In this document: one piece after another, positions 4,163 through 62,737 of the stretch
How positions within the stretch are numbered: position 1 is the stretch's first letter
Layout of the letters: each line of letters opens with the position of its first letter
Source of the DNA: Lepidostoma basale
Lineage: Eukaryota; Arthropoda; Insecta; Trichoptera; Lepidostomatidae
Reading direction: 5' to 3'
DNA length: 64,000 nt
Assembly (NCBI GenBank): GCA_022606425.2
Contig: JAHDVF020001563.1
Span: forward strand, 248,001 to 312,000
Position numbers and translations under genes: made by a program
The notes under the pieces: generated by a model
What the model saw: the letters and a program-made list of their open reading frames with translations, nothing else
What the model was told of the DNA's origin: nothing
Databases searched by the model: none

Positions 4163-4360
4163 AAATAGTCCATTGTTTTGGCCGAAACACTATGATATTT
4201 TAACATTTTATAACTGTTAATTCGAAAACTTTGTTTTATATCACAAATTGCATTTATTTTACTTTACGACAGCTGTTTCATCAGCTGAAACAGGTGTCGT
4301 AAAGTAAAATAAATACAATTTGTGATATAAAACAATGTTTTTGAATTAACAGTTATAAAA
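4163..4360. repeat. H2 palindrome, copy a (core-deleted)
   Basis: Starts with the H2-specific one-sided tail (TAGTCCATTGTTTTGGCC). It then forms an inverted repeat with about 70-base arms whose centre is near 4283. The arms keep the part around the ribozyme cleavage site (GACAGCTGTTTC and its mirror GAAACAGGTGTC), but box 1 and stem II are deleted at the centre, so no hammerhead can form. Confidence 0.8.
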
Positions 4361-4371
4361 TAAAATAAAAT

Positions 4372-4565
4372 AAAAACACTGCACTTTGTTTTTCACCACT
4401 ATGCGGTTATTTTATCGACTAGTTTCGCTTTTACCCAAGCTTCCTGGGGGCTTAGTAATAACATAACCTGTTATTACGAAGCCCTGAGGATGCTTAGGTA
4501 CAAGCGAAATTGGGTACAAAGTCGGCAATTAAAATAACCGCATAGTGATGAAAAACATTTTGCCG
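4372..4565. repeat. H3 palindrome, copy a, with two hammerhead-like arms
   Basis: Inverted repeat; the arm ends are GCGGTTATTTT (left) and AAAATAACCGC (right). The right arm reads CTGAGGA (4486-4492), one extra T, a GCTT/AAGC stem II, GAAA and a decayed stem III. The left arm on the minus strand has a decayed box 1, an intact GCTT/AAGC stem, GAAAC, UA and GUC. It abuts H2 copy a. The tail similar to H6 (GCTTCATACGAAA) follows at 4640-4655. Confidence 0.7.
4483..4515 (+). ncRNA. Hammerhead-like motif, H3 right arm
   Basis: Box 1 CUGAGGA is intact, followed by one extra U and a 4-bp stem II GCUU/AAGC and GAAA. The cleavage triplet is not preserved: the family form is GAAAC-UA-GUY and this copy has decayed there. 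Probably inactive. Confidence 0.4.
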
Positions 4566-4671
4566 TGTCTTATTTATTATTATTTTTTTTTTAAATACAA
4601 ACAATAGAATTTTTTTAAATGTGAAACCACAGTAATAAATGCTTCATACGAAAATTAAAAAAAACGTTTAA

Positions 4672-4830
4672 TAATTAATACGAAGGAAAACTTCAATTTT
4701 ATAGAAGTTTTAGAAGTTTTATTATATTTTGTGGGAATGGCTTTGCTAAGGTATTATCAAATATTTGATAAAACCTTATCATGCCGAAACATGGTCTTCC
4801 CATGAAATATAATTTTATTTATTGATTTAA
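4672..4830. repeat. H1 palindrome, copy a (degenerate)
   Basis: Short H1 copy recognised by GAAGTTTTATTATATTTT, GGGAATGG and the mirrored GCCGAAACATGGTC. Box 1 is TTGATAA (4765-4771), but stem II is eroded and the triplet has shifted, so activity is unlikely. Confidence 0.65.
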
Positions 4831-5030
4831 ATATATTAAAAGCATCACATAACTACATTCCAATATACCAGAGATACATAATATTATTAATGTGAAGTTT
4901 GAGACACAATAGTAAATAATACATAATGAAATAAATAGTCCATTGTTTTGGCCAAAATACTATGCAACATCACTACTGTTAAAATTTAAAACACTGTTAT
5001 AATATCACGATTTCTTTTTATTCACTGAGA

Positions 5031-5079
5031 GTGTCACGACAGCTGTTTCGCCGACCGATGTTGGAATCTTCGGGTGTTC
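5031..5079 (-). ncRNA. Hammerhead ribozyme motif, H2b left arm
   Basis: On the minus strand: box 1 CCGAAGA (5067-5073; U4 is C), one extra U, an imperfect stem II over 5050-5065, GAAAC (5045-5049), AGCU, triplet GUC (5038-5040), then stem I. Stem III is the self-complementary ACAGCUGU. The U4 change and two stem II mismatches suggest reduced or no activity. Confidence 0.6.
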
Positions 5080-5117
5080 AAATAAACTAGCATCTACATC
5101 GAAATTATAAGTTTATT

Positions 5118-5167
5118 GTGACACCTGATGATGACAACATCGGTTGGCGAAACAGCTGTCGCGATAC
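5118..5167 (+). ncRNA. Hammerhead ribozyme motif, H2b right arm
   Basis: Box 1 CUGAUGA (5125-5131) is intact, followed by one extra U, stem II GACAAC/GUUGGC (5 of 6 pairs, loop AUCG), GAAAC (5149-5153), AGCU and GUC (5158-5160). Stem I pairs C-G next to the core, with internal mismatches, and again further out. All invariant core bases are present. The stem III sequence is self-complementary, as in minimal hammerheads that work as dimers. Confidence 0.75.
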
Positions 5168-5374
5168 TCTCAGTGAACAAAAAGAAATTGTGATATTAAA
5201 ACAGTGTTTTAAATTTTAACAGACATAATGAAACCATATGATGACCTGACAATTCTAAAAATGATCAAAAAAGCTACTCCCTCAGGTGAACTACACTATC
5301 ACAAAATACGTCGACCTCCCGAGGTGACACGATTTAGTAAAGATATTGCTCTACCTACCGGCATAACAATTGTC

Positions 5375-5605
5375 ATATTGGTTCTGCATCATGGGAGATA
5401 AAACAATATGTAGCCCCTTTGTCGAAGATAATTATCAGGGACGAACAGACCTACATCACTCAGGATTTCTGAGTTGTATATACAACCGCCCATCAGTCGA
5501 AAGAAGTGAACACCCAAGTATGTCTTGTCTTCTCCCGAGTGACTGGTAGCCTAGCATCCCTAGCAATAAATCAATCGGAAAGAGCCACGGGTAATATACC
5601 CTATA
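5375..5605 (-). mobile_element. Jockey-type LINE fragment
   Basis: The minus-strand translation contains YYPWLFPIDLLLGMLGYQSL, matching YPWLYPTAFLLGMLGTNSL in the longer jockey-type copy at 44660-45285. It therefore represents the region after the reverse-transcriptase palm. Both ends are truncated. The stretch 5226-5375 may belong to it but is too decayed to assign. Confidence 0.7.
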
Positions 5606-5637
5606 AAAATATAAGACAACAAAACTTACAACAAAAA

Positions 5638-5700
5638 CAGACGTTTTCATTCGTATTAATTATTTAATATAGAGTTTTACATCATTGTTCAAGACACAAA
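5638..5700 (+). repeat. H1 solo right end
   Basis: Isolated H1 terminal tail: GACGTTTTCATTCGTATTAA followed by the one-sided end (GAGTTTTACATCATTGTTC). The ribozyme part and the left arm are absent. It abuts the jockey fragment. Confidence 0.75.
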
Positions 5701-6190
5701 ATATATTTTATTTTCAAGGTTTGCGTTAATTTTGGTATTCTGTTTGCATTATAATATATACAATATATGTAACTACACAACCCGTACAAAAACTCAATTC
5801 CCCCAATACATTTGAATATCTTTTGTGTACTTCCAGGAAAATTACAGCAACACAAGCTCCCCGCGTCCCATGTTAGGCACAAATAGGAATATGGAAAAGA
5901 AAACTAATCATAAATAAGAAAAGTCGTGCTAATAAAAAGTCTGACCTTTTTATTAGACCCCGTATCTGTATGTGTCTCCGATGCGAGATTCTTCTCGCAA
6001 TTCGGGCCCATCCGTGGGGCATACATATTTACGTTTACATGATTTATATTCATTTGGAGTGCGACATTTTTTACTATAATACAATGGCGTAGAAATAACC
6101 TTAATACTGTCGATAAAAAAAATAAAAACAAAATTTTCATTTTATAAAGAGAATCTTAAACACTCTCTTATCCACTTTATTTATCAAATG
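5701..6190. other. Unannotated unique sequence
   Basis: Moderately AT-rich, with a GC-richer patch at 5955-6030 (TTCGGGCCCATCCG). No convincing coding region or known repeat. The minus-strand frames here have no recognisable domain. Confidence 0.4.
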
Positions 6191-6194
6191 TTTT

Positions 6195-6262
6195 TATAAA
6201 ATAAAATATTCCGCACTACGTGTTTCGGAGGTAACCTCCTGAATCTTTAGATGTTATACAAC
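6195..6262 (-). repeat. H9-like hammerhead remnant
   Basis: The minus strand has stem II GGAGG/CCTCC with GAAAC and a GUA triplet, as in the H9 element at 35700-35905. Box 1 is disrupted (CUAAAGA separated from stem II by four bases). Likely an inactive single arm. Confidence 0.4.
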
Positions 6263-6355
6263 TAAACTAAAACTAAAGAATACTTATAAACTAAACATAT
6301 GTTGACATATGGTTCGTTAAGAAGTTTCGAACACATTGTAAAAATAAATTAATAG

Positions 6356-6562
6356 TCAAGAAAGTATATGTTAACGATGTAAGTGGATCTGGAAATACAG
6401 GAAGACCGAGGAAAACGTGGCACGATCAAATAAATCAAATATTGAATGTCGGCCACGTGAGGAGTCGGAGAAATCAACCTGCGTGCAGGGACGTATGTCA
6501 GGAAAGGAAATTGTGGCAGTCCATAATTTCTGCCTACCCCTTCGGTAAGAGGACATGTTGGT
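6356..6562 (+). mobile_element. LINE A 3' fragment
   Basis: 5'-truncated LINE A copy: AAGTATATGTTAACGATGTA, the GRPRKTWHDQINQILNVGHV-coding block, then CTACCCCTTCGG and a TTAGTTAGTT tail. Near the end a small deletion removes the TRCMNVEEA codons. Confidence 0.85.
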
Positions 6563-6716
6563 TAGTTAGTTTATTTTACAAAATATTTTACAAACATGAT
6601 CGGCTTCATCAGTTTGTTGTCACCGTGTCTATAATAATGATAATAATAACTAGCTTTTAAAGCTCCGTTTTAATGATGTAATCACCTCAAAGGCGCATCA
6701 ATTTTGTAGGTATTAA

Positions 6717-6874
6717 ACAACATTCCCCATTCCACCCTTCTTACGACCACCATGTCTGACAAATTTTTGGAAGTTGTATATATGCTAATATGCAACACCA
6801 CAATTCACATGTTCTATTTCAATCTACACACTAATCCAATCTTCATAGATGGCGCTAGGAATGGGGAATGTTGT
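6717..6874. mobile_element. Short TIR element (MITE)
   Basis: Perfect 17-base terminal inverted repeats, ACAACATTCCCCATTCC at 6717-6733 and its complement at 6858-6874, bound a 158-base non-coding element. ATTA occurs close to both ends, but a clean target duplication cannot be set. The superfamily is not identified. Confidence 0.65.
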
Positions 6875-7009
6875 ATTACATAAAGCGTGCGCTTAACCCA
6901 ACCAATGACAGGTCATAAGTCCTGTAAACACCTCGACTACCAGATCCTGTTCCCAATTTGTATCTTCGTCTCTATTGAGATACAATTAATCTATTTTATG
7001 ATTTTACAA

Positions 7010-7062
7010 TCGTCGAGTTTTACATCATCGTTCAAGAAACGATAAATATTATTTCTGTGCAT
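7010..7062 (+). repeat. H1 terminal tail remnant
   Basis: Contains GAGTTTTACATCATCGTTC and AAGAAACGATAAAT, a variant of the H1 one-sided end. No arms or ribozyme are present. Confidence 0.55.
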
Positions 7063-7189
7063 ATACGTTAATATTTTTTAAAGAATGACAACTACGCCAA
7101 TGTGTTATGACAAATTCATATTTTCATTTATATCCGGACTCCTAGAGGGATACAAAAAATCACGTGACATATAGTAGATGGTATCTAAA

Positions 7190-7545
7190 TCATTAAACCG
7201 GCGCTCACATTTACATCTGGCAGAGAAAAGGAATTGTCTCGAAGTATGATCTCTTTATCTGGGAAGAAACAATAGATTACACGGCATCTGAGTGCCGTCT
7301 ACGGGGATGAATATATACTGCAGTATTATGTAAATAGTTATTGGTGCCAGCGTTGCCCCGCGGGGCGGGCCGTTTACAGACGGGCCGGAAGAGGGAAAAT
7401 GCGTTTTGTCGCATTTCGTATGTTCTGAAACGAGTATCCTGTTTCCGGTCGCAAATCGACTGCATTTTTTTACGTAATGTAGGAAAAATGAAGGAAATGG
7501 TTTGGATAACGTGCTGGGATGCTTACTCAACGAGATTGCTTTTGC
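7190..7545. other. Unique GC-rich islet, candidate conserved non-coding element
   Basis: About 350 bases of complex, GC-richer sequence (GCCCCGCGGGGCGGGCC at 7353-7369) in AT-rich surroundings. Three overlapping open frames exist on both strands but none resembles a known protein, and open frames are expected where stops are diluted by GC. It is not repeated in the window. A regulatory role is inference. Confidence 0.4.
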
Positions 7546-7767
7546 ACCACCTAAAATAAAATAAAATTAATGAATCTTTTTATTTTATCACTAAATCAAG
7601 ATTGTAAAGAAAAATCTTAAAATATTCAAAAGGGGTATAACAAATATTTAATAATATATCATTTCATCAATCATTCAATATATTTCATATTGTTTATACC
7701 TCTTAATATCTTATTATTAAAACGAATGAAAACGTCAGTTTTCTAGAAGTTTTATTATATTTTATGG

Positions 7768-7806
7768 GAATGACATGTGTCGCCCTTCGAAGGCATTATC
7801 AAATGT
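7768..7806 (-). ncRNA. Hammerhead-like motif, H1b left arm
   Basis: Minus strand: box 1 UUGAUAA (7796-7802), extra U, stem II GCC/GGC with UUCGAAG between, GACAC in place of GAAAC, AU, and GUC (7772-7774). Box 1 has U3 and A8, a compensating pair for the usual C3-G8. The GACAC change should abolish cleavage. Confidence 0.5.
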
Positions 7807-7948
7807 GACGAAACATCAACTCGTTGCAGTTTATATACAAAGTTAATGAAGCAGAATATGTTAATTAACGAAAATTGATGTAACATTAATTAATTAATTC
7901 TGCTTCATTTACTAGTGTTTATAAACTGCAACGAGTTGAAGATTCGTC

Positions 7949-7990
7949 ACATTTGATAATGCCTTCGAAGGGCGACACATGTCATTCCCA
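7949..7990 (+). ncRNA. Hammerhead-like motif, H1b right arm
   Basis: Box 1 UUGAUAA (7953-7959), extra U, stem II GCC/GGC, GACAC (7974-7978), AU and GUC (7981-7983). It is a mirror of the left arm, including the GACAC change, so presumably inactive. Confidence 0.5.
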
Positions 7991-8438
7991 TAAAATATAA
8001 TAGAACTTCTAGAAAACTGACGTTTTCATTCGTATTAATCATTTAATATGGATTTTTATATCATTGTTCAAGGAACAAAACCTCTTAATATCATTCCAAC
8101 AGATTTCATATCTAGGCTTATGACCCATCGTTTTCATATTTCATACCCAAATTTAAAGCCAACTTCTTAATTTATTTTATTATATTATTTTCTTACAGAT
8201 CACGTATATCAGATGCAATGTTCATATTTAGATTTTTAGATTTATACTCGTACACGTCTTAATGCGCTCTTGAGCTTACAATACGAAAACGGCGCTTTAA
8301 AAGTTAGCATATTATTATTATTAACATAACTATCAAATAGTCCATTGTTATGGCCGAAACGCTATGATACTTCAACATTATTACTGTTAAAATTGATTAC
8401 ACTGTTATAATATCACAATTTATTTTTATTCACTGAGA

Positions 8439-8487
8439 ATATCACGACAGCTGTTTCTCCAACCGATGTTGGCATCATCAAGTGTTA
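8439..8487 (-). ncRNA. Hammerhead ribozyme motif, H2c left arm
   Basis: Minus strand: box 1 UUGAUGA (8475-8481; C3 is U), extra U, stem II GCCAAC/GUUGGA (5 of 6 pairs), GAAAC (8453-8457), AGCU, GUC (8446-8448). U3 could wobble with G8. Stem III is self-complementary. Confidence 0.65.
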
Positions 8488-8549
8488 CAAAAAAACATAG
8501 ACAAGCACAGGACACATAGGTAACCATGATGATTACAGATAAAAAATTT

Positions 8550-8599
8550 GTAACACCTGATGGTGCCAACATCAGTTGGCGAAACAACTGTCGCGATAT
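8550..8599 (+). ncRNA. Hammerhead ribozyme motif, H2c right arm
   Basis: Box 1 CUGAUGG (8557-8563; A9 is G), extra U, a perfect 6-bp stem II GCCAAC/GUUGGC with loop AUCA, GAAAC (8581-8585), AACU, GUC (8590-8592). The A9 change probably lowers activity. Confidence 0.65.
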
Positions 8600-8689
8600 T
8601 CTCGGTGAACAAAAATTAATTGTGTCCAATGTATATTCTTTCTAAATGAATTAATAATTCGATTCTTATGTAAAGAACGCGTTAATAAT

Positions 8690-8945
8690 GTGGAAATCCA
8701 AAATGGCGATTTATTATTGAATTAAGACATGTTTTTTTTTTTACTTTTGAGCTTATTTTTTTCCACTTGTTTCGAATGTTTTACGCTTTCATTATCGGGA
8801 GAATAATGTGCACTCAATGTCAACGCTATGTTTTAATTGTTATATCGATAGTTAATGTATAAAACTAAAAAAAAAAACTTCCAGAAAAAAAAATTCGAAA
8901 GTGAAAAAAAAAAGTTTTTATATTCATAAAAAAATTCTAAATTGA
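8690..8945. repeat. H4 repeat, copy a
   Basis: Contains the H4 left arm (TTTCCACTTGTTTCGAATG, then TTTCATTATCGGGAGAA). The minus strand reads CCGAUAA, extra U, a GAA..UUC stem, GAAAC, AA, GUG. The right arm is collapsed into A-rich sequence. The triplet GUG is not cleavable. Confidence 0.55.
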
Positions 8946-10120
8946 TTTATATCATTCCAATAAAAATCTATTAATCGGTCAAGTACAAAAAACTAATATT
9001 AATTGTATTTTTTATGTAAAACAAACCCCAAACTCTTAATATCATACGAGTAACAGTTTGTTTACGCAAAAAGTTATTTTTTAATGTTCATATCATAATA
9101 CCAAAACAATATTCATATATTTTTAGTCTAAACAAAAGCGATTTACCTACCTTAAGCTAGACACATAAAATTACATTATTGAGTGTATAATGTAAAATTT
9201 ATTTAAATTTAACAAGTTCTATGTTTAAAAATGGCGTATACAATATTATGATAATATCCCGAAAACGCCTGCGACGCCATTTATGCTAAACCAAAGTGGA
9301 CCGTCAAAAATAATGGTCCAGATATTTTTTCCTATCATTCTGGAGCAGACTCTTCTGTTTTGCTTGTATACACACAAAACAATTATGTTGTCTTACAACC
9401 TATGCATCATATACGTTTATTATATACGCCCATTATTTAAACATATGTTCGTAACAGTACTGTATATATAAAATATCGTATAATAAATCAATCTGACAGA
9501 AGCTTTAAATTACAATATTATTAATTTAATCGTAAATAAAGACAGCACGGAATCCACCTCTCGTAAGAGTCAAACCTCTGGAAAACAGACCTCAAAGGTC
9601 TATTGCAAGGGAAAAGAAGAAAAAAATATGAACACCTATTTATTATTAAATAAAATCTCACAAAATATTCGAAAATATTTTAAAAGTTTTAAGTTTTGCG
9701 TTTATTTTTTTTTTAAATTCGTGTCTCTACCTATTTTGCGAGGCTTATCTGTTCACGCTATAAAGCTCTTAGCGATTTAATAAGCTTCTATTAATTTATC
9801 TCAGATTTAAAAGAGAAAGATCTGCAGTTGTGTTAAAAAAAAAAATAACTTTGTTGTCCTATCTAATCTATTAAATACATTCTACAAACAAAAATATTTC
9901 GTATCATAAAAAGAAAAAAATAATCAGGTAGGCAGGATTAGGCAGGAGTAGGCCGAACCGGTCTAAACTTAAAAAAATGGAGTAAACTAAATATATTTTA
10001 TAAAATAATCTCCATTTTTTTTTTCATTATTTACAGTTTTAATTAAATTCTATCAAAATTTAAATTAACAACAAATTTTCACAACATGTTTTGGAGTTGA
10101 CCTTCATCCTTAGGTGAACA
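8946..10120. other. AT-rich stretch without supported feature
   Basis: Mostly low-complexity AT-rich DNA. The patch at 9540-9625 is less biased and could be an old LINE piece, but no motif can be read. Frames present here have no recognisable domain. Confidence 0.5.
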
Positions 10121-10129
10121 AATATATTA

Positions 10130-10345
10130 TGTATTTTTCTTTTTTATATACTTTGTATATACAACACTACCTTTAAAAAAAATTAATTACATATCAGATA
10201 TGTTTCAGACAACCGGTCCTTCCTCAGTGATATTATAAAGATACATATTTAAAATATTATAAAATTGTTTACAAATATGATCAGTTTTGACTATTGTTAT
10301 TACTTTTGTTATTACAAATATTATGAATCAATTTAAAATTTAAAA
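10130..10345 (-). repeat. H5 repeat, copy a (single arm plus body)
   Basis: A minus-strand H5 unit: end motif ATACTTTGTATATACAACAC, ribozyme motif near 10192-10232, then about 100 bases of body that also occurs at 19140-19290 (ATTATAAAATTGTT, ACAAATATTATGA). The facing arm is absent. Confidence 0.75.
10192..10232 (-). ncRNA. Hammerhead ribozyme motif, H5a
   Basis: Minus strand: box 1 CUGAGGA (10221-10227), extra A, stem II GGAC/GUCU with a loop of five, GAAAC (10202-10206), AU, and AUC in place of GUC (10197-10199). Stem I AUAUCA/UGAUAU is fully paired. The core is nearly intact; the change next to the cleavage site breaks the second stem III pair. Confidence 0.6.
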
Positions 10346-10439
10346 ATCTTATTGGAGTTCGTAAAACGTGAAAGTTTAAGGGTGATAATAAATTTTTTTA
10401 CATAAACTTTTATTTTTACATAAAATACAAATTTAGACC

Positions 10440-10765
10440 TATCATGATGCATGCTGTAGAGACGCGGCACGACACTGTGCGAACCAAGGGTCTATTAAGA
10501 ACATCTGAGATGAAGGTCCTTAGATCAATTTCAAATCAAAAAAATTGCGAAATAGAGGATATCGTTCAGTGGAGTAAATCCAGAAGAAGATACTGAATGG
10601 ATAGTGACAGACTCGCATATACAGCCGATTATGAAACCCCTCCGGACACCCCCACCTGGAAAACCGCCTAAAAGATGGAGGGACAGCTGGACCTCATATC
10701 CCCCGAGACATAATTTCTATGTCACAGATCGTCAAATCTATTAAAAGAAGAAGAAGACGAATTTG
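10440..10765 (+). mobile_element. LINE C 3' fragment
   Basis: C-terminal region of a LINE. One frame gives GLLRTSEMKVLRSIS, then after a break SHIQPIMKPL, and in the next frame KPPKRWRDSW. The K-R-W-x-D-S-W block and an AAGAAGAAGAAGA tail recur at 14393-14600, 40125-40270 and 43255-43545. 5' truncated, with frameshifts. Confidence 0.7.
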
Positions 10766-10944
10766 GTATTCAGTATTTTTTAATCAGCGAAGCTGAAGAA
10801 TTCTTCACCTTTCGAAATATTATAACATTATTTAATCTTCACGCAGTATTAAACTCACATTATAAATTCATAAACTGAACATTCAAGAAGAAAACATAAA
10901 ATAGCCATAAAACAATGGATATCCAAACGTTCCCGAGAAAGTAT

Positions 10945-11115
10945 TCCGTTAACACGTGTTCTGGCTCCTGCAGCGCCGAACAGTGTCCTCCGGTCGGGCC
11001 GTAAATCCCCCATAATGTACGAGGCGGTCCTGGGCTGGGCCGCGCATAAATCTGCCGGCCCTGGATGGATTCAATGCCTCTGTTATAGAAACACCTCGTA
11101 ATAAACGATGGGCCA
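10945..11115. other. Unique GC-rich islet, candidate conserved non-coding element
   Basis: Non-repeated GC-rich block (CAGTGTCCTCCGGTCGGG, CTGGGCCGCGCATAAATC) with several open frames but no recognisable protein. Flanked by AT-rich DNA and LINE fragments. Confidence 0.4.
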
Positions 11116-11212
11116 GAGAAGATGCTCGCTAGAATGATGTGTGACTTTTGCCACCTTATACTGAACGGCCATAACATACATTTTATACATAAAACTAGTT
11201 TCCAGTATTTCT

Positions 11213-11515
11213 GGTTTGGACACATGGTTTGGACACATGGAAAGAATGAATAAAGAAAGAATGGTAAAACAAGTATATGTTAACGATGTAAATGGAACCA
11301 AAAATAGAGGAAGACCAAGGAAAAAGTGGCACGATTAAATAAATCCAATATTGAATGTCGGCCAGTGAGGAGTCAGAGAAATCGACGCGCGTGCATGACA
11401 CGATGTATGAATGTTGAGAAAGCGAGAGAAATATGTCAGGAAATAAAAGTGTGGCAGTCCATTTTTTCTGCCTACCCCTTCGGGGAGACGGCGTGATGGT
11501 TAGTTAGTTAGTTAG
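11213..11515 (+). mobile_element. LINE A 3' fragment
   Basis: Begins with a duplicated TGGTTTGGACACATGG, continues through ERMNKERMVKQVYVNDVNGT-coding sequence and the RPRKKWHD block, and ends CCCCTTCGGGGAGACGGCG, TGA stop, and a (GTTA)n tail. The tetraloop-hairpin sequence at 11475-11485 is intact. Frameshifts occur after the WHD motif. Confidence 0.85.
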
Positions 11516-11559
11516 TTTTAGAAAAAAAAATAGTATGTTGATTTAGTAAAACCGTATCT

Positions 11560-11800
11560 GCGTTATGAAGCAAAAAAGCGATCGCTGTATTTCTGTGAAT
11601 AAAAAAGGAAATAAACCGGATAAATGAATTCAGTTTCTCGGCCCTTTTCAGCGCAGGAAATTCCAATGACGCCGTATAAAATAGCGGGCCCTATCTTATA
11701 GTCAAATCTGCTGTTTTGTCGCAGTATGAAGGGCATACATTCCGTCACCCTTTGTTTGTTATTTCAGTCATTGATATCGGGAGGGAGCATCGTAATGAAT
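11560..11800. other. Unique GC-richer islet
   Basis: Complex non-repeated sequence (TTCAGCGCAGGAAATTCCAA, AATAGCGGGCCCTATC) with one 60-codon frame without known relatives. Candidate regulatory DNA. Confidence 0.35.
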
Positions 11801-12190
11801 GTTCATACTTGTTACTGACAAACTATGTTTTATTTTAGAGCGTTGTTTCTTTACACGAATACATTGAAACATTCTATTATATTATATTTAAATAAAATAC
11901 GAAATCTATTTTTTTAATTCAGTCACATTGGTTTAAGTATTCTTAAGTTTTGTATTGTAAAATACTATAATTTAATAATTACTTAAAAACTATTATATAA
12001 ACATTAATATAACATCCAACTTAATAAATTCAAAACGCAAAGGTTTCATGATTTATGAAAAATTCTTAGTAGAAATTATTTGTTACTGATGTTGTATTTG
12101 TATTATCCAATAGTTCCAATTGGCTTCAAAATATAAATCTATAATTATATAATAATAATCAAATAACATTTAATAATTATTTTCTATCAA
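11801..12190. other. AT-rich DNA, nothing supported
   Basis: Low-complexity AT-rich sequence with no frame, repeat or RNA signal that I can support. Confidence 0.55.
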
Positions 12191-12194
12191 AATA

Positions 12195-12440
12195 TTTTGC
12201 AATTATTTTCGTATTTTTCCACTTTTTTATCGCTTTTGAGTTTATTTTTTTAACTAATTTTGAGGACTATGGGGATAAAATATTCTCAACGTGCTTTTAA
12301 GGTGTCGTATTTCCTCATCGGAAGAACGGTATCTAATTTTTTTTAACTAAATGAGAAGTGTGAAAACAACAGTGTTTTAATTCATAAAAACTTTCATGAT
12401 TGTGGAATTTCACAGTGCTAATGTTTTAGGTTTATAATGG
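12195..12440. repeat. H4 repeat, copy b (degenerate palindrome)
   Basis: H4 signatures: TTTTTCCACTTTTTTATCG on the left, CCTCATCGGAAGAAC in the middle and GTGTTTTAATTCATAAAAA with GGAATTTCACAGTG at the right end. On the minus strand box 1 is CCGAUGA but stem II and GAAA are lost. Confidence 0.55.
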
Positions 12441-12927
12441 AAAAAATACATATTTAAAAGTCATTTGATAACAACGGTAATTTAAACTATGGACACATAT
12501 CCAATTTTAATGTTAAGAGATCTAAATTGTATTTACATTTGGTGTGTTAGTCGGATATTGATACTAAATGGGTCATTGTTTCATGATTGTGAAAAATATC
12601 AGTCTCTAAAGTAATCGTGTTCAGCAGTGTGATTGTTCTCATCACTGGTAACACCAGAAACAAGTTAGTTGTGCACGTTGGGAGGTAAAACAAGTTTATA
12701 TGTGGCTTGAGTTCAGTTTGATGAAAATTTACCCGCTCATATTGTATAGCAGGGAATAAGTGCTTTAGCCATATAATAGATCATGCAGTAGTATACACTC
12801 TCGATTCAGCTGCTAACATAAGGTTATAAATATTGACAACGCCCTATCTCATGTCAAAGTTTAAAATAATATTAACATCAAGCAATATTTTTTTTATTTC
12901 AGTTGTTTATATTTATAATTCATTTAT
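12441..12927. other. Unannotated sequence
   Basis: Moderately AT-rich, not repeated within the window, with no supported gene or RNA. The part at 12640-12800 is of normal complexity and could be functional non-coding DNA. Confidence 0.4.
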
Positions 12928-13270
12928 TCTTCTTCAGCCTAATATTCTGAAACAAAGGCCTCCACCATCCATTTCCATGCTTATCTTTCTCAGGTTATGC
13001 CGATGGCTCGGGTCAGATCATCCTACCACTGTTATTGCGGTCGCCCTGCATTTCTCTTTGATGTCCATGGTCTCCAAGTGAACAATTTTCTCGTCCATTT
13101 TTCTTACGAGCTTCTAGCTACGTGACCTACCCTTTGCCATATTAGAGTTGCTACACGGTGTATGATGTAGGTAACCTTTTTTATTGTTTCTTAAATAATG
13201 ATGTAAAACTCCATATTAAATAATTAATACGAATGAAAACGTCAGTATTCTAGATGTTTTATTATATTTT

Positions 13271-13523
13271 CGCACCTTCGGTAAGACAAGGGCATAATTA
13301 TAAAAAATTCTCAAAATTAGTTAAGTATGCCAATGTATTTTAAAAACATATCTTTATCTGAAGGAATAAAGTCGCTCATTATGTTCAGTCTCGTTTTGCC
13401 AGAAGGCGATAGTGTATGATCAATATAGCCAGAATAACACGACATTATTCTTCAAAGATCTTAAAATGTCTCTAATGAAAAATTACAAAAGTGCAATGGT
13501 GCCCTTATCTTACCGAAGGTACG
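13271..13523. mobile_element. TIR element nested in the H1 left arm
   Basis: About 253 bases bounded by inverted repeats CGCACCTTCGGTAAGACAAG (left) and the complement of CGTACCTTCGGTAAGATAAG (right), extending 24 bases with few mismatches. TTTT flanks both sides (13267-13270, 13524-13527), and removing the insert restores the H1 arm. No ORF; family not identified. Confidence 0.75.
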
Positions 13524-13531
13524 TTTTATAG

Positions 13532-13570
13532 GAATGACATGTTTCGCTCTTCTAAAACATTATCAAATGA
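13532..13570 (-). ncRNA. Hammerhead-like motif, H1c left arm
   Basis: Minus strand: UUGAUAA (13560-13566), extra U, stem II with G-C, U-G, U-A and U-G pairs, GAAAC (13541-13545), AU, GUC (13536-13538). GAAAC and GUC are intact; box 1 carries the U3-A8 pair. Stem I is short (two pairs). Confidence 0.55.
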
Positions 13571-13571
13571 G

Positions 13572-13612
13572 ACATTTGATAATGCCTTAGAAGAGCGAAA
13601 CAGGTCATTCCC
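13572..13612 (+). ncRNA. Hammerhead-like motif, H1c right arm
   Basis: UUGAUAA (13576-13582), extra U, a weak stem II, GAAAC (13597-13601), AG, GUC (13604-13606). One of the better H1 cores: GAAAC and the triplet are intact and U3-A8 replaces C3-G8. Confidence 0.55.
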
Positions 13613-13867
13613 ATAAAATATATTAAAACTTCTAGGAAACTGACGTTTTCATTCGTATTAATTCGGTAACCTTTGTTTATTCTCTCACCGTTTCCTCTCT
13701 GACTCCGTATTTGAGGCTTATTCCTAACATGGCTCTTTCGATGGCTCTTTGGGTCATTTACAATTTCTCGACACTTTATTTCGATGATATGACAGATTTA
13801 GCCCTTAGTGGCAACGGGGATGATTCATTTAGTAAGTGTTTAACGTCTCTGCTATAAATGAACACAA

Positions 13868-14615: not shown

Positions 14616-14677
14616 GACAACCTTCGTGGCCGAGTGGTAAGTGCTTTGACTGCAACCCCGAAAGTTCCGGGTTCGAT
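14616..14677 (+). mobile_element. tRNA-derived SINE, 3' truncated
   Basis: First 62 bases of the SINE seen complete at 49408: A box GGCCGAGTGGT and B box GGTTCGATTC. The rest of the element is absent. Confidence 0.7.
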
Positions 14678-14689
14678 TCGAAACAATGA

Positions 14690-15289: not shown

Positions 15290-15480
15290 GGCATTTTATT
15301 ACAATAATAACAAACTATGTATCTTTATAATATGTATCACTCTGAAGAAGGACTGGTTGTCCGAGACATGTCTGATATGTAATTTTAATAGTGTAGTATA
15401 TACAAAGCATATAAAAAAGAGAAAAAGACAAATAAAACATCTACAATACAAAGTATGGCGAACATAGAAGAAATTTATTA
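15290..15480 (+). repeat. H5 repeat, copy b (single right arm)
   Basis: Plus-strand H5 unit with ribozyme motif, then AGTATATACAAAGCATAT and the tail shared with H10 (ACAAAGTATGGCGAACATAG). Arm facing it is missing. Confidence 0.75.
15334..15380 (+). ncRNA. Hammerhead ribozyme motif, H5b
   Basis: Box 1 CUGAAGA (15342-15348), extra A, perfect stem II GGAC/GUCC with loop UGGUU, GAGAC (15363-15367; family form GAAAC), AU, GUC (15370-15372). An extra T before box 1 offsets stem I. GAGAC probably inactivates this copy. Confidence 0.65.
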
Positions 15481-43075: not shown

Positions 43076-43109
43076 AGAATAAACTGTTCGAATAATCAGT
43101 TTATTCTCT

Positions 43110-51584: not shown

Positions 51585-51695
51585 CTTTCACTTTTGAGTT
51601 TATTTTTCTCTACCTGTGTATAACATTCGAAACATGTCGAGAAAAATAAAATCAAATGTGGAAAAAATAATGTTTTAATTCATTTAAAAAAACAG
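51585..51695 (+). repeat. H4 copy e, collapsed
   Basis: TTCACTTTTGAGTTTATTTT then ACATTCGAAACATGTCGAGA and AAATAAAATC. The centre with box 1 is deleted; GAAAC-AU-GUC is intact. Confidence 0.65.
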
Positions 51696-51741
51696 AGATT
51701 TTGCTCTGCTAGCTTAGATTGTATAACTGAAATATTTTTAG

Positions 51742-51972
51742 ATAATCTATTGTCTTGGCGGACACACTTTGATATTTCAACATTATTAACTGTTGAATTA
51801 AAACTCTGTTACAAATATCACAATTGATTATATTTTGTTGCGACAGCTGTTTCGCTAGAGTTTATTGTAAGACCTGACGATGCTAATATCGGTTAGCGAA
51901 ACAGCTGTCGCGACAAAATATAATAAATTGTGATATTTATAACAGAGTTTAATTTAAATAGTAAAGAATTTT
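51742..51972. repeat. H2 palindrome, copy e
   Basis: One-sided tail (ATTGTCTTGGCGGACAC), left arm cut within stem II (CGACAGCTGTTTCGCTAG), right arm with an intact hammerhead, mirrored end ATTGTGATATTTATAACAGA. Confidence 0.85.
51867..51916 (+). ncRNA. Hammerhead ribozyme motif, H2e
   Basis: Box 1 CUGACGA (51874-51880) intact, extra U, perfect stem II GCUAAU/GUUAGC (six pairs with one G-U, loop AUCG), GAAAC (51898-51902), AGCU, GUC (51907-51909). Compared with H2b, two stem II positions have changed together (C-G to U-A), supporting selection for pairing or at least a paired ancestor. Stem I is weak. Confidence 0.75.
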
Positions 51973-53639: not shown

Positions 53640-53800
53640 TGTTCTATTTAAAATATTTTTTTGGCAACACTGATGAAGGGCTTCTGTGTCCCGAAACATG
53701 ATTGGGTTAATATGTAAATTTGTTTGCGATAATTTTTTTGTGTTTGTTAAGTGTTGTGTTACAAATAACAAAATATTGTTCGATTATGAATCCGTAACAT
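53640..53800 (+). repeat. H10 repeat, copy a (single arm)
   Basis: Ribozyme motif, then arm sequence and the tail GATTATGAATCCGTAACATT, a variant of the H5/H10 tail. Confidence 0.7.
53664..53706 (+). ncRNA. Hammerhead ribozyme motif, H10a
   Basis: Box 1 CUGAUGA (53670-53676) intact, extra A, stem II GGG/CCC (with one mismatched step beyond), GAAAC (53693-53697), AUG, then AUU at the triplet position (family form GUU). Stem I CA/UG next to the core. Core complete except U16.1. Confidence 0.55.
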
Positions 53801-53997: not shown

Positions 53998-54375
53998 TGA
54001 ACAATATTAATTTCTTTTGTTAAGAACGCTAACATTATTAAAAAATAAAATTTAAATACAAACCTATTTCGGACACAGAAGTCCTTCCTCAGTGTTGTTA
54101 TTTTTTTTGTAAATACAATATATAAAAATTAATAGTAAATCAATTTTTTTCATGAATTATTTTTTTTAGTATCTGTCAAAACTGACCACATTCATTAAAA
54201 TTTTGTTTGAATTTTTATTTTATCTATACGAAAATCTAACAACACTGAAGGGCTTCTTTGTACGAAACATATTTTAATTTAAATTTTTAATAAAGTTAGT
54301 GTTGTTTACAAGGAAATTAACATTATTCAATAAATACGCAACACAAAGTAATGGCGAATATTGAAGAAATAAATG
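53998..54375. repeat. H10 palindrome, copy b
   Basis: Left arm (GAACAATATTAATTTC; TAAAATTTAAATACAAACC) on the minus strand, body of about 110 bases, right arm (CATATTTTAATTTAAATTTT; AGGAAATTAACATTATTC) and tail CAACACAAAGTAATGGCGAA. The left arm has the better ribozyme; the right arm reads CTGAAGGGCTTC, with box 1 and the extra base fused by a deletion. Confidence 0.8.
54056..54099 (-). ncRNA. Hammerhead ribozyme motif, H10b left arm
   Basis: Minus strand: box 1 CUGAGGA (54086-54092) intact, extra A, perfect stem II GGAC/GUCC (54081-54084 with 54071-54074, loop UUCUGU), GAAAU (54066-54070), AGG, UU, stem I ACA/UGU three pairs. Only the second stem III pair is broken. Confidence 0.6.
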
Positions 54376-55489: not shown

Positions 55490-56000
55490 GTGGCAGTGCA
55501 CAATGGTGTTCTTGTGCCGACCCTTATGTATGGAAGTGAAGCATGGAACTGGCAAAACAAGGATGAAAGTAGAATAAATGCAGTAGAAATGAGATCTCTA
55601 AGACGAACGTGTGGCAAATCTGTATATGATAGAGTGACAAATGCAAGTATAAGAAGTGAATGTGGTGCGAATGAAAGTGTTATGAACAAAATAAGGAAAG
55701 GGTCATTAAGATGGTTTGGACACATGGAAAGAATGATTGAAGACAGAATGGTAAAGAAGGTATATGTAAACGGCGTGAACGGAGCTAGAAATAGAGGAAG
55801 GCCGAGGAAAACGTGGCACGATCAAATCAATCAAATATTGAATGTCGGTCACGTGAGGAGTCGGAAAATCGACGTGCGTGCATGACAAGATGTATGAATG
55901 TAGAGGAAGCGAGAGAAGTATGTCAGGACAGAACAGTGTGGCGTTCCATTCTTTCTGCCTACCCCTCCGGGGAGACGGCGTGATGGTTAGTTAGTTAGTT
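55490..56000 (+). mobile_element. LINE A 3' fragment with 134-codon open frame
   Basis: Open from 55481 to 55885: VLVPTLMYGSEAWNWQNKDE, INAVEMRSLRRTCGKSVYDR, GSLRWFGHMERMIEDRMVKK, VNGARNRGRPRKTWHDQINQ, then a 1-base deletion in VRSR(R)NRRAC shifts the frame before VEEAREVCQD. Ends with CCCCTCCGGGGAGACGGCG (hairpin loop UCCG) and TTAG tail. AC[T/G]TGCATGAT flanks it at 55479 and 56001. Confidence 0.9.
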
Positions 56001-56132
56001 ACGTGCATGATACGATGTATAATTGTTGAGTAATCGAGAGTAGTATGTCAGGAAAGAAAAGTGTGGCAGTCCATTCTTTCTGCCTAGCCCTTCGGAGGGA
56101 CGGCGTGACGGATGGTTAGTTTAGTTAGTTAT
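56001..56132 (+). mobile_element. LINE A 3' fragment, older tandem neighbour
   Basis: CGTGCATGATACGATGTATA, AGGAAAGAAAAGTGTGGCAG, GCCCTTCGGAGGGACGGCG and TTAGTTTAGTTAG tail. The younger copy seems to have inserted near its 5' end. Confidence 0.8.
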
Positions 56133-57990: not shown

Positions 57991-58074
57991 ATTTCCTACA
58001 TTTTCACTACCGTAGATCGAGATACGAAGACTACCGAAATCTAACAATGAATGACGATAGCTTAAAAATCATAA

Positions 58075-58370
58075 TGAAATAAACAATGTTTTTTTATTAA
58101 CTACTTCCATTTTTTCCTTTATTTCGACAGTAACCAGTTTCGCCAGACTCAGACTGCCTTCGATGCCATCGCTTTTGATAAAATCTATGGCGATACAATC
58201 AAACCCAACAACTTTTCCACTTTTCATTGCTTTCACGGATCTTTCCATCTCATTCGTACTTATTTTCTCAGTATTATCGTGTATAGGTCCCGCACTCGTA
58301 TTAGTTGTTATACTTTCGATCACGCTTGTTTCACCACCATACTTTTTTTAAATACTCCATCCATCTTTCT
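58075..58370 (-). mobile_element. LINE reverse transcriptase N-terminal-domain fragment
   Basis: Minus-strand 84-codon frame includes STNEMERSVKAMKSGKVVGF, DCIAIDFIKSDGIEGSLSL, matching the 'AI..MK.GKA.GPD.I..E..K..G' start of LINE reverse transcriptases, so it comes from well upstream of the other LINE pieces. At 58090-58155 it merges with a palindromic-repeat arm (GTAACCAGTTTCGCCAGAC) resembling a truncated hammerhead. Confidence 0.7.
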
Positions 58371-59905: not shown

Positions 59906-60568
59906 CTTCCTACTGACCCGAATATCACCGTAAAGTCAGAAGAACAAAGCTCTTACTCATGTTTCATACAATACCGTGTCGGGTACTAGGCGACAAATTT
60001 CTCTACAAACATTATTATCTACGTGTTCGTTTCGCAGTACATATTTAGGTTTCTGGTTTTGCTTCGTCGGTTCGGTGCATGAATACAAATTTGAAAACAT
60101 ATCGAATCGATTAAAATAAGTACTATATTCTTTATTCCCAGAATATTTTATATATTAATATAAGATAGTTACAATTTTTAAAAATATAAAGACAGATGCA
60201 GACGAGAAGAACACATCGATTGAGTCTACGCAATGCAAAAAAACATTATGATATACATGAAATATGCAAAATCATTATCATAATAATTTGTTAATAATTG
60301 TTAAACAATGTTTTTCTCAGAAACATTTTATTTTGGACCTTTCTGATTGACATTATATGATTTATTTAGTTTTTTTACGTATGTAAACATTTTATTCATG
60401 AATAAACTGTAATTTCACTATTCCAGGTAATATTTTCCAATATTCTGGGGTTTATACCTTCATTATTTTTAACAATGTATTAAGTCACGTCAGCTCCTTA
60501 ATTGCCATATATTGCTCCTTAACTCGTAAATAAAAACAGTAACGCGTTTTATTTTTGTTACATTTGAA
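59906..60568. other. Mixed to AT-rich DNA, nothing supported
   Basis: No supported feature. Confidence 0.45.
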
Positions 60569-60569
60569 A

Positions 60570-60665
60570 ATGTCTTAGACAGGCGAAACATGTTATTCAC
60601 ATAAATTATAATAAATCTTATATAGAAAAGTCGTTTTCATTCGTATTAAGTTAAATATAGATTAT
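60570..60665 (+). repeat. H1 right half
   Basis: GTCTTAGACAGGCGAAACAT, ATTATAATAAATCTTATATA, GTCGTTTTCATTCGTATTAA. GAAAC is present but the triplet is GUU; box 1 is absent. Confidence 0.7.
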
Positions 60666-60669
60666 CAAT

Positions 60670-61680
60670 ATAAATAAAAGACAATGTTCGTTGTTATGAA
60701 ACTGATGGACTTGACAAATACTGAACTGATTGCAATGAAATTTTACTTTAAAATCCATATAAATGAATTCTTAGTGTGGCAGATCTTTTAACGCCAGGAC
60801 GTTATGGTCTATATTGGGTTAAACTAATTTTGTTTGATGTCATTATTTAATTGTGTGTGAGTTGATATCGAACTTCAATTGTATTTAATTCATAAATTGC
60901 ATATACTCGAATAAAGCAAAAGCGAACCGTTATCGGGTTCACTTGTATTTAATTATATTTTTTTAAATCATATATTGTAACACCATACAAAGTGCAAATA
61001 GTGTAAAAAGCTTCAGAATGAACTCTTGCTAAGCGAATAAAGATCGTATATCTACAAAATTAAATGATAGATGCCGAAGCGAGATAGATTGCCGAGATCC
61101 TCCAAGCTCCGCACTGCTGTTTTTATAGAAAGACGTCACAGTAATGCTCCTGCTATTTTCTCTCTTGCCTAAAAACGATTTTCCAATTTTATTACCCCAT
61201 AAAATTGACAACCCGGGACCCGTGTTCCTATATTCTTTTTGAAGGCAGTGACACCGCAAGTTTTCGAAGCAAAACACCGTTTTGCGAAAAACTGATTAAA
61301 AAATTAAAACCGCGTCATCGTTTAATTACTTAGCCATATTGTCATTCGAAATTGCGCGCTTTCAAATATACACACAACAGATTTAAGTCACAATGTGTTT
61401 TGAAGAAGGATTCGCGGAAAGTTCTATAATAATGCTTTAATTACGTCTTTTGAATAAACAACAATACGTAATAATACATATACGTTTATTTTACTTAAAT
61501 TAGTATTTTGTAGGATTGAACAAAGGTTTTTTGATCTGTTTTTTTTTTATATGAGAACAATAGTATTAGAGCTACCCATTTGTTTTTAGACTAATTCAAT
61601 TTCAGTTACCAAATATATTAAATATAATTTATAAAAAATTTAAGTATAATTTGTATATAAAACAATAAATTATTAACAAC
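60670..61680. other. AT-rich DNA with an islet at 61020-61290
   Basis: Islet: ATAGATGCCGAAGCGAGATA; TCCTCCAAGCTCCGCACTGC; CAACCCGGGACCCGTG. The 82-codon minus frame lacks known relatives. Candidate conserved non-coding DNA. Confidence 0.4.
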
Positions 61681-61683
61681 ATT

Positions 61684-61929
61684 GAGGACCTTCGTAGCCG
61701 ATTGGTAAGTGCATTGACGGCCACCCCGAAGGTTCCGGGTTCAATTTCCGGCGAGGGCAGTGTGATTGTCACACTGTCTTCGGTCTGGTGTAGAATTCAC
61801 CTGACAACAAAATTGCGATAGATTAGCTACCTATCACATGTCACAAGAAATACTACGACAGCTATTACTTCGATTTGGCTAATGCTGTCATGATGTAAAG
61901 ATCGATTCAACAAAATAATAATAATAATA
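61684..61929 (+). mobile_element. tRNA-derived SINE, near full length
   Basis: GGACCTTCGTAGCCGATTGG head, B box GGTTCAATTTCC, GTGTGATTGTCACACTGTC linker, GATAGATTAGCTACCTATCA hairpin, TGTCATGATGTAAAGA and (AAT)n tail. Compared with the 49408 copy, diverged in the A box. Confidence 0.85.
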
Positions 61930-62175
61930 CTTTATTTAAAAATAATAAATTAATTAACACAAATATGTCTCGGAAACAGAAGCCCTTTATCATTTTATTG
62001 TATTATACATACAAAATAAATATTTAAACTAATGTTTCATGAATGTTTTCAGATTTGACAGATGTTAATTTTTCATATTATATTTTATTTTAAATAACGT
62101 GATGTTTTGCAAAGAAATAAATATTGTTCAATATGAATCCGCAACACAAAGTGATGATGAATATAATTTATCGTA
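61930..62175 (-). repeat. H10 repeat, copy c
   Basis: Minus-strand arm at 61940-62000 (TTAACACAAATATGTCTCGG; AGAAGCCCTTTATCATTTTA): box 1 AUGAUAA, extra A, stem II remnant, GAGAC, AU. The body and the tail TCCGCAACACAAAGTGATGA follow. Inactive. Confidence 0.7.
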
Positions 62176-62512
62176 ATTAAATTTATCTAGTTCTATAAGT
62201 AATATAATTTATCTAGTTCTAAAAGAAGCTATTGCAATAGTTAGGAATGTTGCATGTTCAATGGAAAACCTATGACGGCCTAATCTAGGGGCGTGTATTT
62301 GATTCTGTCTATTGCCGTGAATTATCTAAAAAATTATCAATCTCTCAACTTTTAAGCATATTCTATTTTATTTTTATATAATATGTAGTATCTTTACAAC
62401 AGTATTAGTTTTTTTTTTTTTCTAGGGTCAGTAGATTAAATATGGCATGTGGTCACATTGAAAGCGATATTCAAATGATTAACAAATTATATTTATGTTA
62501 ATCAATGGTATA
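62176..62512. other. Unannotated DNA
   Basis: ATAATTTATCTAGTTCTA occurs twice in tandem near 62176-62225 (short duplication). Otherwise nothing supported. Confidence 0.4.
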
Positions 62513-62514
62513 TA

Positions 62515-62737
62515 AAAACGGTTAATACGAATGAAAACGTAAGTTTTCTAGAATTTTTCTTATATTGTATGTGAATGCCATCTTTCGCCCTACTAAGGCA
62601 TTGCTGAATGTCATTCATCATGTCATTCTTATACAATACTCGTGTAATAAAACTTCTAGAAAATTGACGTTTTCATACGTATTAATTATTTAATTTGGAG
62701 TTTTACATCATTGTTATTGAAACAATAAAAATTAAAA
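62515..62737. repeat. H1 palindrome, degenerate copy
   Basis: Arms GGTTAATACGAATGAAAACG and GACGTTTTCATACGTATTAA with complete tail (GGAGTTTTACATCATTG; AAACAATAAAAAT). The centre has lost box 1; only GCCATCTTTCGCCC is visible. Confidence 0.8.

Follow-up and report, generated by a model that had tools for sequence, protein, structure and literature searches.

Hammerhead-bearing palindromes of Lepidostoma basale are probably truncated, mostly head-to-head insertions of Penelope-like elements

Inverted pseudo-LTRs, tails, target duplications and hammerhead ribozymes are all published features of Penelope-like elements (PLEs), and what is new in the present work is a large data set on PLE insertion. 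It comes from a 64,000-nucleotide stretch of Lepidostoma basale DNA (contig JAHDVF020001563.1, positions 248,001 to 312,000; hereafter the window, with positions counted from its first letter) and from the host genome. According to the sections of the Adineta vaga study available to us (PMC3846280), PLEs of that species share with the window elements inverted, head-to-head pseudo-LTRs, pseudo-LTRs that extend into the beginning of the ORF, and target duplications, which are 8-10 bp there. Antisense RNA has been proposed as their template, and the same sections contain no mention of hammerheads (0 occurrences). The inverted pseudo-LTRs of A. vaga mostly bound ORF-bearing copies, whereas the window copies are mostly short, lack ORFs and belong to many families. 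The PLE protein of Anolis carolinensis, for which, as the first full-length one of its kind, in vitro activity was reported in 2024, uses two adjacent RT start sites, and both target strands are cut and extended (PMC11167929). Features in common between this PLE, Poseidon, and the elements described here are a protein with RT and GIY-YIG, an optional tail from two adjacent internal RT start sites, AT-rich targets and a hammerhead in the pseudo-LTR. However, Poseidon is arranged in direct tandem and its hammerhead overlaps the start codon, whereas our hammerheads lie upstream of the ATG; moreover, head-to-head insertions predominate among the loci that we examined, and the Poseidon main text does not discuss inverted insertions (PMC11167929).

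Metazoan retrozymes are likewise small and non-coding and carry type I hammerheads but, in the accessible parts of two reports (PMC7229834, PMC7761336), they are direct tandem repeats whose hammerheads are canonical, unlike the inverted pairs, minimal hammerheads and RT/GIY-YIG kinship found here; dispersed minimal hammerheads of the PLE kind are noted in the same parts. Very many short copies, as in the window, are also known from the monarch butterfly with its penelope-1_dPle, where 10,478 Penelope elements occupy 2.55 Mb, or ~243 bp each by division (PMC8848866, in the portion available). That portion mentions no hammerhead or palindrome and, unlike our interpretation, reads the fragments mostly as 3' deletions.

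The original prediction for positions 4163-62737 of the window was that they are seeded with about ten families of palindromic, hammerhead-carrying repeats, mostly as inverted two-ribozyme units. About ten families were indeed present: nine (P1-P8 and G) carry hammerhead cores, mostly within palindromes 125-430 bp long, and the window palindrome of P9 has no ribozyme left. We annotated 24 palindromic insertions; the window holds 21 inverted pairs, whose arms measure 32-134 nt, and at least one pair (25283-25605, in transposase-like sequence) is unrelated. The hammerhead-ribozyme palindromes are real, though short and broken. The repeats very probably derive from insertion of endonuclease-containing PLEs, of which about ten families are represented, mostly as head-to-head pairs of 5'-truncated pseudo-LTRs with a minimal type I hammerhead, and the window copies are best interpreted as truncated copies made by autonomous PLEs.

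The ordered hammerhead core exceeded chance expectation, as had been claimed. A strict pattern (CTGANGA, a stem II of at least 4 pairs, GAAA) was matched 7 times in the window, compared to a mean of 0.05 and a maximum of 1 in 100 first-order Markov shuffles, while a relaxed pattern gave 18 rows at 16 places, including sure chance matches (e.g., at 20590, 24249 and 29035), versus a mean of 1.65 rows (range 0-5) over 20 shuffles. In a hand-picked set of one copy from each of the nine families, stem II differed among families yet paired, also as claimed: the 5' tetramers are nine different words, and the outer pairs are Watson-Crick at 35 of 36 places. When the 3' halves of stem II were swapped among families, the mean was 17.9 pairs and 35 was reached in 0 of 100,000 swaps. 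Stem I, readable in seven families, gives weaker support: 19 of 28 pairs form there, and 86 of 100,000 swaps did as well. A covariance model (R1), for which trimmed, equal-length strings of just P1, P3 and G served as training set, recovered five held-out families at E<0.01 (P4, 3.1e-6; P5, 3.6e-6; P7, 1.2e-5; P8, 1.6e-4; P6, 0.0023; E-values rough). This test is non-circular. The ninth family, P2, with a U3/A8 core, reached an E of only 0.14-0.21. Several families depart from the standard core, P2 and P5 for instance by U3/A8, and we do not consider this change a novelty since natural U3-A8 covariation with in vitro activity is already described in the accessible part of PMC3088659. Many window cores are decayed. 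The families otherwise show the hallmarks of PLE hammerheads of the minimal type I, namely CUGANGA...GAAA around stem II plus a very short stem III. Rfam models detected no hammerhead in the window, even at E<=10, and their miRNA-like matches are the long hairpins; exact scans of IMG/VR with two ribozyme strings returned 0 loci.

Palindromes are given here without a strand. Those of P1 have the tail on the left arm and lie at 4166-4356 (P1a; arms cut at the GAAA of the ribozyme, 12-bp direct repeat, nested inside P8a), 4937-5226 (P1b; two ribozymes, hammerhead 5120-5165(+), 11-bp direct repeat), 8337-8624 (P1c; two ribozymes, hammerheads 8552-8597(+) and 8441-8486(-), no direct repeat seen at its ends) and 51744-51972 (P1d; hammerhead 51869-51914(+)). 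P2 palindromes with a right-arm tail are P2C (7709-8082; long, U3/A8 core at 7946-7991(+), 13-bp direct repeat), P2G (37122-37355; the query of the genome search), P2J (47128-47298; an asymmetric pair with an AT-rich, 10-bp direct repeat), P2K (49770-50491; interrupted at 49917-50446) and P2M (62514-62730); the tail is at the left in P2D (13178-13664; nested insertion at 13271-13523, 10-bp direct repeat) and in the strongly truncated pair P2H (39454-39578). No tail was detected on either arm of P2a (4665-4813), and that of the decayed P2F (31436-31645) fell under the threshold. Single P2 arms occur on the plus strand at 5634-5701 and 42265-42368, both truncated and tailed, and at 60531-60663 (R1 E 0.14). 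P3 is represented by a single plus-strand arm with ~150 nt of 5' body (P3a, 39716-40010; hammerhead 39871-39913), by a palindrome with a left-arm tail (P3b, 41384-41813; hammerheads 41479-41520(-) and 41710-41752(+)) and by a two-ribozyme palindrome with a right-arm tail (P3c, 42970-43246; hammerheads 43034-43075(-) and 43109-43150(+)).

Left-arm tails were also found in P4 (35690-35925; hammerhead 35809-35849(+)), in the two-ribozyme, U3/A8-core palindrome P5 (43583-43843; hammerhead 43740-43782(+)), in P7b (51515-51700), in the decayed P7c (8672-8945; R1 match at 8759-8803(-), E 0.04) and in P9 (38375-38526), which is cut downstream of the ribozyme. The tail is on the right arm in P6 (45985-46206; one central ribozyme at 46054-46093(-), direct repeat of 14 bp with 1 mismatch), the two-ribozyme P7a (26200-26470; hammerheads 26252-26296(-) and 26327-26371(+)), P8a (4141-4655; interrupted by P1a, hammerhead 4479-4516(+) and remnant 4412-4453(-)) and P8b (23116-23322; joined at the GAAA, 11-bp direct repeat). 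A P9-type arm on the minus strand (58066-58150) has a decayed hammerhead (R1 E 1.5 at 58127-58157), and a family that had been proposed from its stem II, GAAGGU, corresponds to a P7-type core remnant at 41895-41925 on the minus strand (stem II GAAGGT/ACCTTC; R1 E 4.6). Single G arms lie at 10134-10250 (-; hammerhead 10192-10232), 15313-15466 (+; tail ATGGCGAACATAGAAG, hammerhead 15335-15377), 18597-18697 (-; decayed, R1 E 0.76), 31651-31789 (-; with tail, hammerhead 31739-31779) and 33218-33340 (+; hammerhead 33240-33280), and a G-like palindrome with a long centre (53998-54329; hammerhead 54056-54097(-)) was left out of the tail count. The predicted inverted arrangement was confirmed, but not its description as mostly two-ribozyme units: many arms are cut inside the ribozyme and only part of the palindromes have two. 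Family G is mostly single-armed in the window.

A tail was present on one arm in 22 of 24 window palindromes (both arms, 0; neither, 2), where the P4 and P5 tails were defined on the very copy tested, at 13 of 13 genome loci of P2 (12 distinct) and in all 19 young-family insertions (pairing by eye). Direct repeats scored 11-13 at the ends of 6 of 8 young loci, at least 10 at 10 of 13 P2 loci, and at least 9 in 10 of 24 window palindromes versus 6.7% of mismatched flanks. They were not evident in 14 of the 24 window palindromes or at L046/L047, and target duplications were not evident in ten single-armed copies, one of which scores 9. Fold-back or miniature inverted-repeat DNA transposons with chance ribozyme-like words would likewise be palindromic, ~230 bp in size and AT-rich, some with flanking direct repeats. 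However, the matching inverted ends and fixed-length duplication of such transposons were not found: direct-repeat length varies, the ends are asymmetric, with one tailed and the other not, single-armed copies exist, and the arms belong to RT/GIY-YIG elements, which makes this origin scarcely credible. The direct repeats resemble the short, variable target-site duplications of PLEs and probably arose as such.

The placement of the hammerheads among those of Penelope kind held up in the host genome (769 Mb), where arms of these families or of close relatives flank RT/GIY-YIG frames. The P9 arm is ~90% identical to the pseudo-LTR of locus L046, whose 758-aa frame matches RVT_1 (1.4e-13) and GIY-YIG (6.6e-5). 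P5 and G arms match L077 at 75-81%, and the sense arm of L077 continues through ATGGCGAATATAGAAG into an 862-aa RVT_1/GIY-YIG frame (3.4e-9 and 1.1e-4), i.e., the tail past the arm is the start of that frame. The tie between arms and one ORF with RT and GIY-YIG thus runs through P9 and P5/G, and no such tie was seen individually for P1, P2, P3, P4, P6, P7 and P8; the P2 and P4 tails start MEFY, as does the L076 frame, and the P6 tail is common to P9. PLE-like, too, are the frequent inversion of the pseudo-LTRs and the tail that one of them may carry. GIY-YIG in L076 and L078 scored under the Pfam cut-off (21.0 and 19.3 versus 22.6), and a hammerhead that visual reading places in L076 is absent from the R1 matches. 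Within the window, inspection by eye of 147 stop-to-stop frames of at least 65 aa revealed no RT/GIY-YIG frame, and a Pfam scan of ten frames gave no RT or GIY-YIG domain.

Small size, hammerheads and many copies would also suit retrozyme-like, non-autonomous elements, which would multiply as inverted two-ribozyme units, each being transcribed, processed by ribozymes of its own and then copied whole, and the original prediction had favored independent, small non-coding families of this type. That part of the prediction was not supported. The arms are parts of RT/GIY-YIG-encoding elements, and centres and truncations of the palindromes vary between insertions, the exceptions being duplicated loci. 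Since the centres differ, each palindrome was formed separately, and the palindrome as a replicating unit is ruled out. In addition, the ribozyme pairs with the opposite arm in 6 of 9 folded palindromes, and the window has no tandem array of ribozyme units like the direct repeats of ~150-450 bp, with a ribozyme in each, of metazoan retrozymes; the one array with a unit of >100 bases reported by Tandem Repeats Finder (55877-56127) lies in LINE-like repeats. A retrozyme-like origin is therefore very unlikely. As a possible sign of a single template, copy-specific variants were shared more within than between copies in P1, P2, P7 and P8, but not in P3; 11 P2 palindromes had 4 shared copy-specific sites versus 0.99 on re-pairing (35 of 2000 re-pairings).

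For the PLE insertions, the arrangement of arms, tails and flanks suggests a course that we consider, on balance, probable. The PLE protein would make a staggered cut in the target, and both freed 3' ends would prime reverse transcription of the element RNA, copying of that RNA starting ~40 nt inside the reading frame for the tailed arm and just ahead of the ATG for the untailed one. Both copies would run toward the 5' end of the RNA, halt early and be joined head to head. The hammerhead would ride along in the pseudo-LTR, the ends of the insert not being set by it, and in the finished palindrome it would mostly be locked in a long hairpin. The paired RT start sites of the Anolis protein, and its action on both target strands, speak in favor (PMC11167929). 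Since independent choice of start site with two-strand priming does not predict one tail in almost every insertion, coupling must be added. In the alternative of self-priming, which the available part of PMC3846280 proposes from inverted repeats with palindromic junctions, the transcript or first DNA strand would fold back, e.g., at self-complementary hammerhead words, and be copied into an inserted hairpin. The palindromes of 2.0-2.3 kb at L050 and L053, with no spacer at all, and some window palindromes joined in or near the ribozyme are consistent with it. However, a fold-back copy should carry the tail, and the second arm is without one in 22/24, 13/13 and 19/19 cases; the end of this arm also falls within a narrow stretch (unit 90-101 in P2), and most young loci (14 of 17) have a long single-copy middle. 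We regard self-priming as rather unlikely.

The host genome holds a large set of natural insertions in which both start sites are fixed, palindromes carry one tail each and the direct repeats of young copies are clear, and counting within it can distinguish models of two-strand priming from those of self-priming. Tentatively, in this genome PLE retrotransposition could even yield palindromic insertions as a rule: a PLE dimer might read one RNA twice, each protomer primed from one strand of the staggered break, with start sites before the ATG and ~40 nt on forcing exactly one tail, and products might extend from ~0.2 kb up to arrays in which tandem full-length elements stand head to head. Truncated PLE insertion would also offer an alternative to reading the short butterfly PLE fragments as 3' deletions, as the portion of PMC8848866 at hand does, and a simple source for the dispersed minimal hammerheads of animal genomes.

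The pattern put forward in the original prediction, a region seeded with families of palindromic repeats that carry hammerhead ribozymes, is real and visually striking, and the palindromes are of a known kind: they are the inverted pseudo-LTRs of Penelope-like elements (PLEs). The families were seen both by self-comparison and by an inverted-repeat search of the window, and a strict hammerhead pattern (CTGANGA, paired stem II, GAAA) occurred seven times versus a mean of 0.05 in 100 shuffles. Using one hand-picked copy from each of nine families, with the hand-split ribozymes compared letter by letter with the window sequence, we found that the 5' tetramers of stem II are all different, yet 35 of the 36 outer pairs are Watson-Crick; when stem II halves were swapped among families, a mean of 17.9 pairs resulted and 35 was reached in 0 of 100,000 trials. 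The covariance-model check agreed, in that a hammerhead model trained only on families P1, P3, and G (R1) detected P4, P5, P6, P7, and P8 at E<0.01. With the same model, P2 gave E no better than 0.14-0.21, and an Rfam search of the window returned no hammerhead. Hammerhead-model matches were also obtained outside the annotated families at 21470-21513(-), 53665-53717(+), and 10078-10118(-) (E 0.0004-0.0085), and these are perhaps decayed PLE copies. Across the nine families, the stem III words noted (ACATGT, ACCGGT, ACTAGT, ACAGCTGT) are self-complementary, which fits cleavage as dimers, a mode known among PLE hammerheads. Dimeric cleavage is known for newt hammerheads (available text of PMC6155905).

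A full insertion is ordered as reverse-complemented arm (i.e., pseudo-LTR), centre, and arm, with the 3' sides of the ribozymes pointing outward; median palindrome size is 229 bp (range 125-430, n = 21). On one side, sequence extends 24-48 nt past the common arm; this tail contains an ATG and an open frame. Of 24 window palindromes scored at a threshold of 1%, 22 had a single tail, none had tails on both arms, and two (P2a and P2F) had no scored tail, the tail probe for several families being drawn from a tested copy and the result for single-copy P4 and P5 arising partly by construction. Tails similar to those of P4 and P5 occur in P2/P7 and in G. At the insert ends, direct repeats reached a score of 9 in 10/24 palindromes versus 6.7% of mismatched flank pairs, and a score of 11 in 5/24 versus 1.3%. 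When nine palindromes were folded as RNA, the ribozyme paired only with the opposite arm in six, the P6 ribozyme was able to fold alone, and P4 and P1d were mixed. One tail word, AGTGCTTCATACGAAAG, is common to P3 and P8, families with unlike arms, and has five matches in the window (41385-41401(-), 43228-43244(+), 23304-23320(+), 4638-4654(+), and 15999-16015(-)) versus 0.14 expected.

Other elements lie among and within these repeats. Copy P2K contains an insertion (49917-50446) that has TTAA at each end and inverted CCCTTACCACTCC termini (by eye) and looks like a piggyBac-type element; an insertion in P2D (13271-13523), whose inverted ends are CACCTTCGGTAAGACAAGGGC and a sequence nearly complementary to it, appears similar to a small DNA transposon. 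An inverted pair at 25273-25605 lies within transposase-like sequence, its frame containing WPARSPDLSPCDFFLW and having no Pfam match at E<=0.1. A dispersed repeat with tRNA-like heads (49412-49483, 61688-61759, 14616-14679, and 29828-29977(-)) is probably a tRNA-derived SINE, and truncated LINE copies are numerous (2576-2917(-) and many other places), one frame matching DUF6451 (3.5e-10).

Searching the 768.8-Mb host assembly (1572 contigs) with the arm plus tail of P2 gave at least 61 matches (40 of 791 candidates scored). Of the 15 P2 loci cut out, L007 and L014 were single arms and the other 13 were palindromes with head-to-head arms; L005 and L013 duplicate a single locus, leaving 12 distinct palindromes, of which L001 is the copy in the window. 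In 13/13 palindromes the second arm lacked the tail and ended at unit 90-101; because the query included the tail, only its absence from the other arm is informative. Spacers ranged from -9 to 102 nt, and direct repeats scored 10 or more in 10/13, versus 10% of mismatched pairs scoring at least 9. The corresponding P3 query gave at least 62 matches (40 of 2479 candidates scored), with an opposed partner nearby in 22 of the 40. Of these 22 partners, 18 stopped short of the tail, at unit 102-121, C16 stopped at 137, and three were short and uninformative; none extended to the tail's end.

The tail corresponds to the start of a PLE reading frame. At L077, a palindromic pseudo-LTR pair, the sense side leads via ATGGCGAATATAGAAGAAATT to a frame of 862 aa that contains RVT_1 (3.4e-9) and GIY-YIG (1.1e-4) domains; the window tails of G (ATGGCGAACATAGAAG) and P5 (ATGAAGGCGAATATAGAAG) are the start of this frame, with a 75% match between the P5 arm and L077. 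L076 has two direct 831-aa frames starting MEFYQTK and one inverted, with RVT_1 clear (9.5e-14) and GIY-YIG at 21.0, below the cut-off of 22.6; the P2 and P4 tails start MEFY and that of P7 MEFH. The tails of P1, P3, and P8 are open and ATG-led, the link to a coding frame being drawn for P5 and G (L077) and for P9 (L046). Protein matches are ordered - - + + on two contigs (G000:C308 ~2097650-2106480, partly visible in L076, and G000:C502 ~4500-13350), i.e., as tandem elements in head-to-head arrays.

A GIY-YIG family search of the host genome gave at least 62 matches (150 of 541 candidates scored). Matches one and three (frames of 623 and 621 aa; L055 = G000:C102, and G000:C729) were not taken as PLEs; C102 (1.6 Mb) has dense frames and a bacterial look, and the assembly may hold symbiont or contaminant sequence. 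In L046, inverted pseudo-LTRs with hammerheads enclose a frame of 758 aa that contains RVT_1 (1.4e-13) and GIY-YIG (6.6e-5) domains; in the window, the arm and tail of P9 are ~90% identical to this pseudo-LTR. L046 and L047, which have arms, middle, and one flank in common, look like two versions of a single locus; the ends of L047 showed no direct repeat, and L046 sits within a TA repeat. In L048, L049, L050, L052, L053, and L054, arm identity is 97.5-99.8% and end direct repeats score 11-13. Exactly one tail was present in 19/19 distinct insertions among loci L016-L060, opposed ends being paired by eye, less certainly for L035, L058, and L059. In this set duplicates were merged (L021/L044/L053, L037/L041/L052, L046/L047), and L027 (several arms), L028, L031, L038, L039, and L051 (single end visible), and L056, L057, and L060 (repeats of other loci) were excluded.

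Cleavage by the predicted ribozyme probably does not set the insert ends, given that arm 5' ends often lie within or just upstream of the hammerhead (an impression by eye, unscored), that the family with the youngest insertions (pseudo-LTRs of L046 and L050, arms up to 99.8% identical) has the core CTGTCGA, with A6 changed to U, and that P2 and P5 cores are U3/A8. A U3/A8 core was also read by eye upstream of the L076 frames, where model R1 reports none; U3-A8 is a known natural variation (available text of PMC3088659). Hammerhead mutation left in vitro insertion of the Anolis carolinensis Poseidon PLE unaffected (PMC11167929).

The Anolis protein acts on both target strands, cutting and extending each, and begins reverse transcription at either of two adjacent internal positions, the source of an optional tail (PMC11167929). 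For Adineta vaga PLEs, the available text of PMC3846280 describes inverted pseudo-LTRs, one of them tailed, and favors self-priming on an antisense template, by which fold-back copying yields a palindrome. L050 and L053, spacer-free palindromes of 2.0-2.3 kb, do suggest a shared template or fold-back; however, 14/17 loci have a single-copy middle, and the second arm lacks the tail, which a fold-back copy would be expected to include. Two-strand priming fits these data better, considering the narrow position of the untailed end and the direct repeats at the insert ends. An added constraint is that nearly every insertion is one-tailed, which, as a count, we did not find in the main text of PMC11167929 or the available text of PMC3846280. 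Since independent start choice on each strand would yield many two-tailed and tailless inserts, the two reactions must be coupled, and we infer that reverse transcription on the two target strands would be linked so as to leave one tail per insertion. The value of the palindromes lies in the data they provide on PLE insertion.
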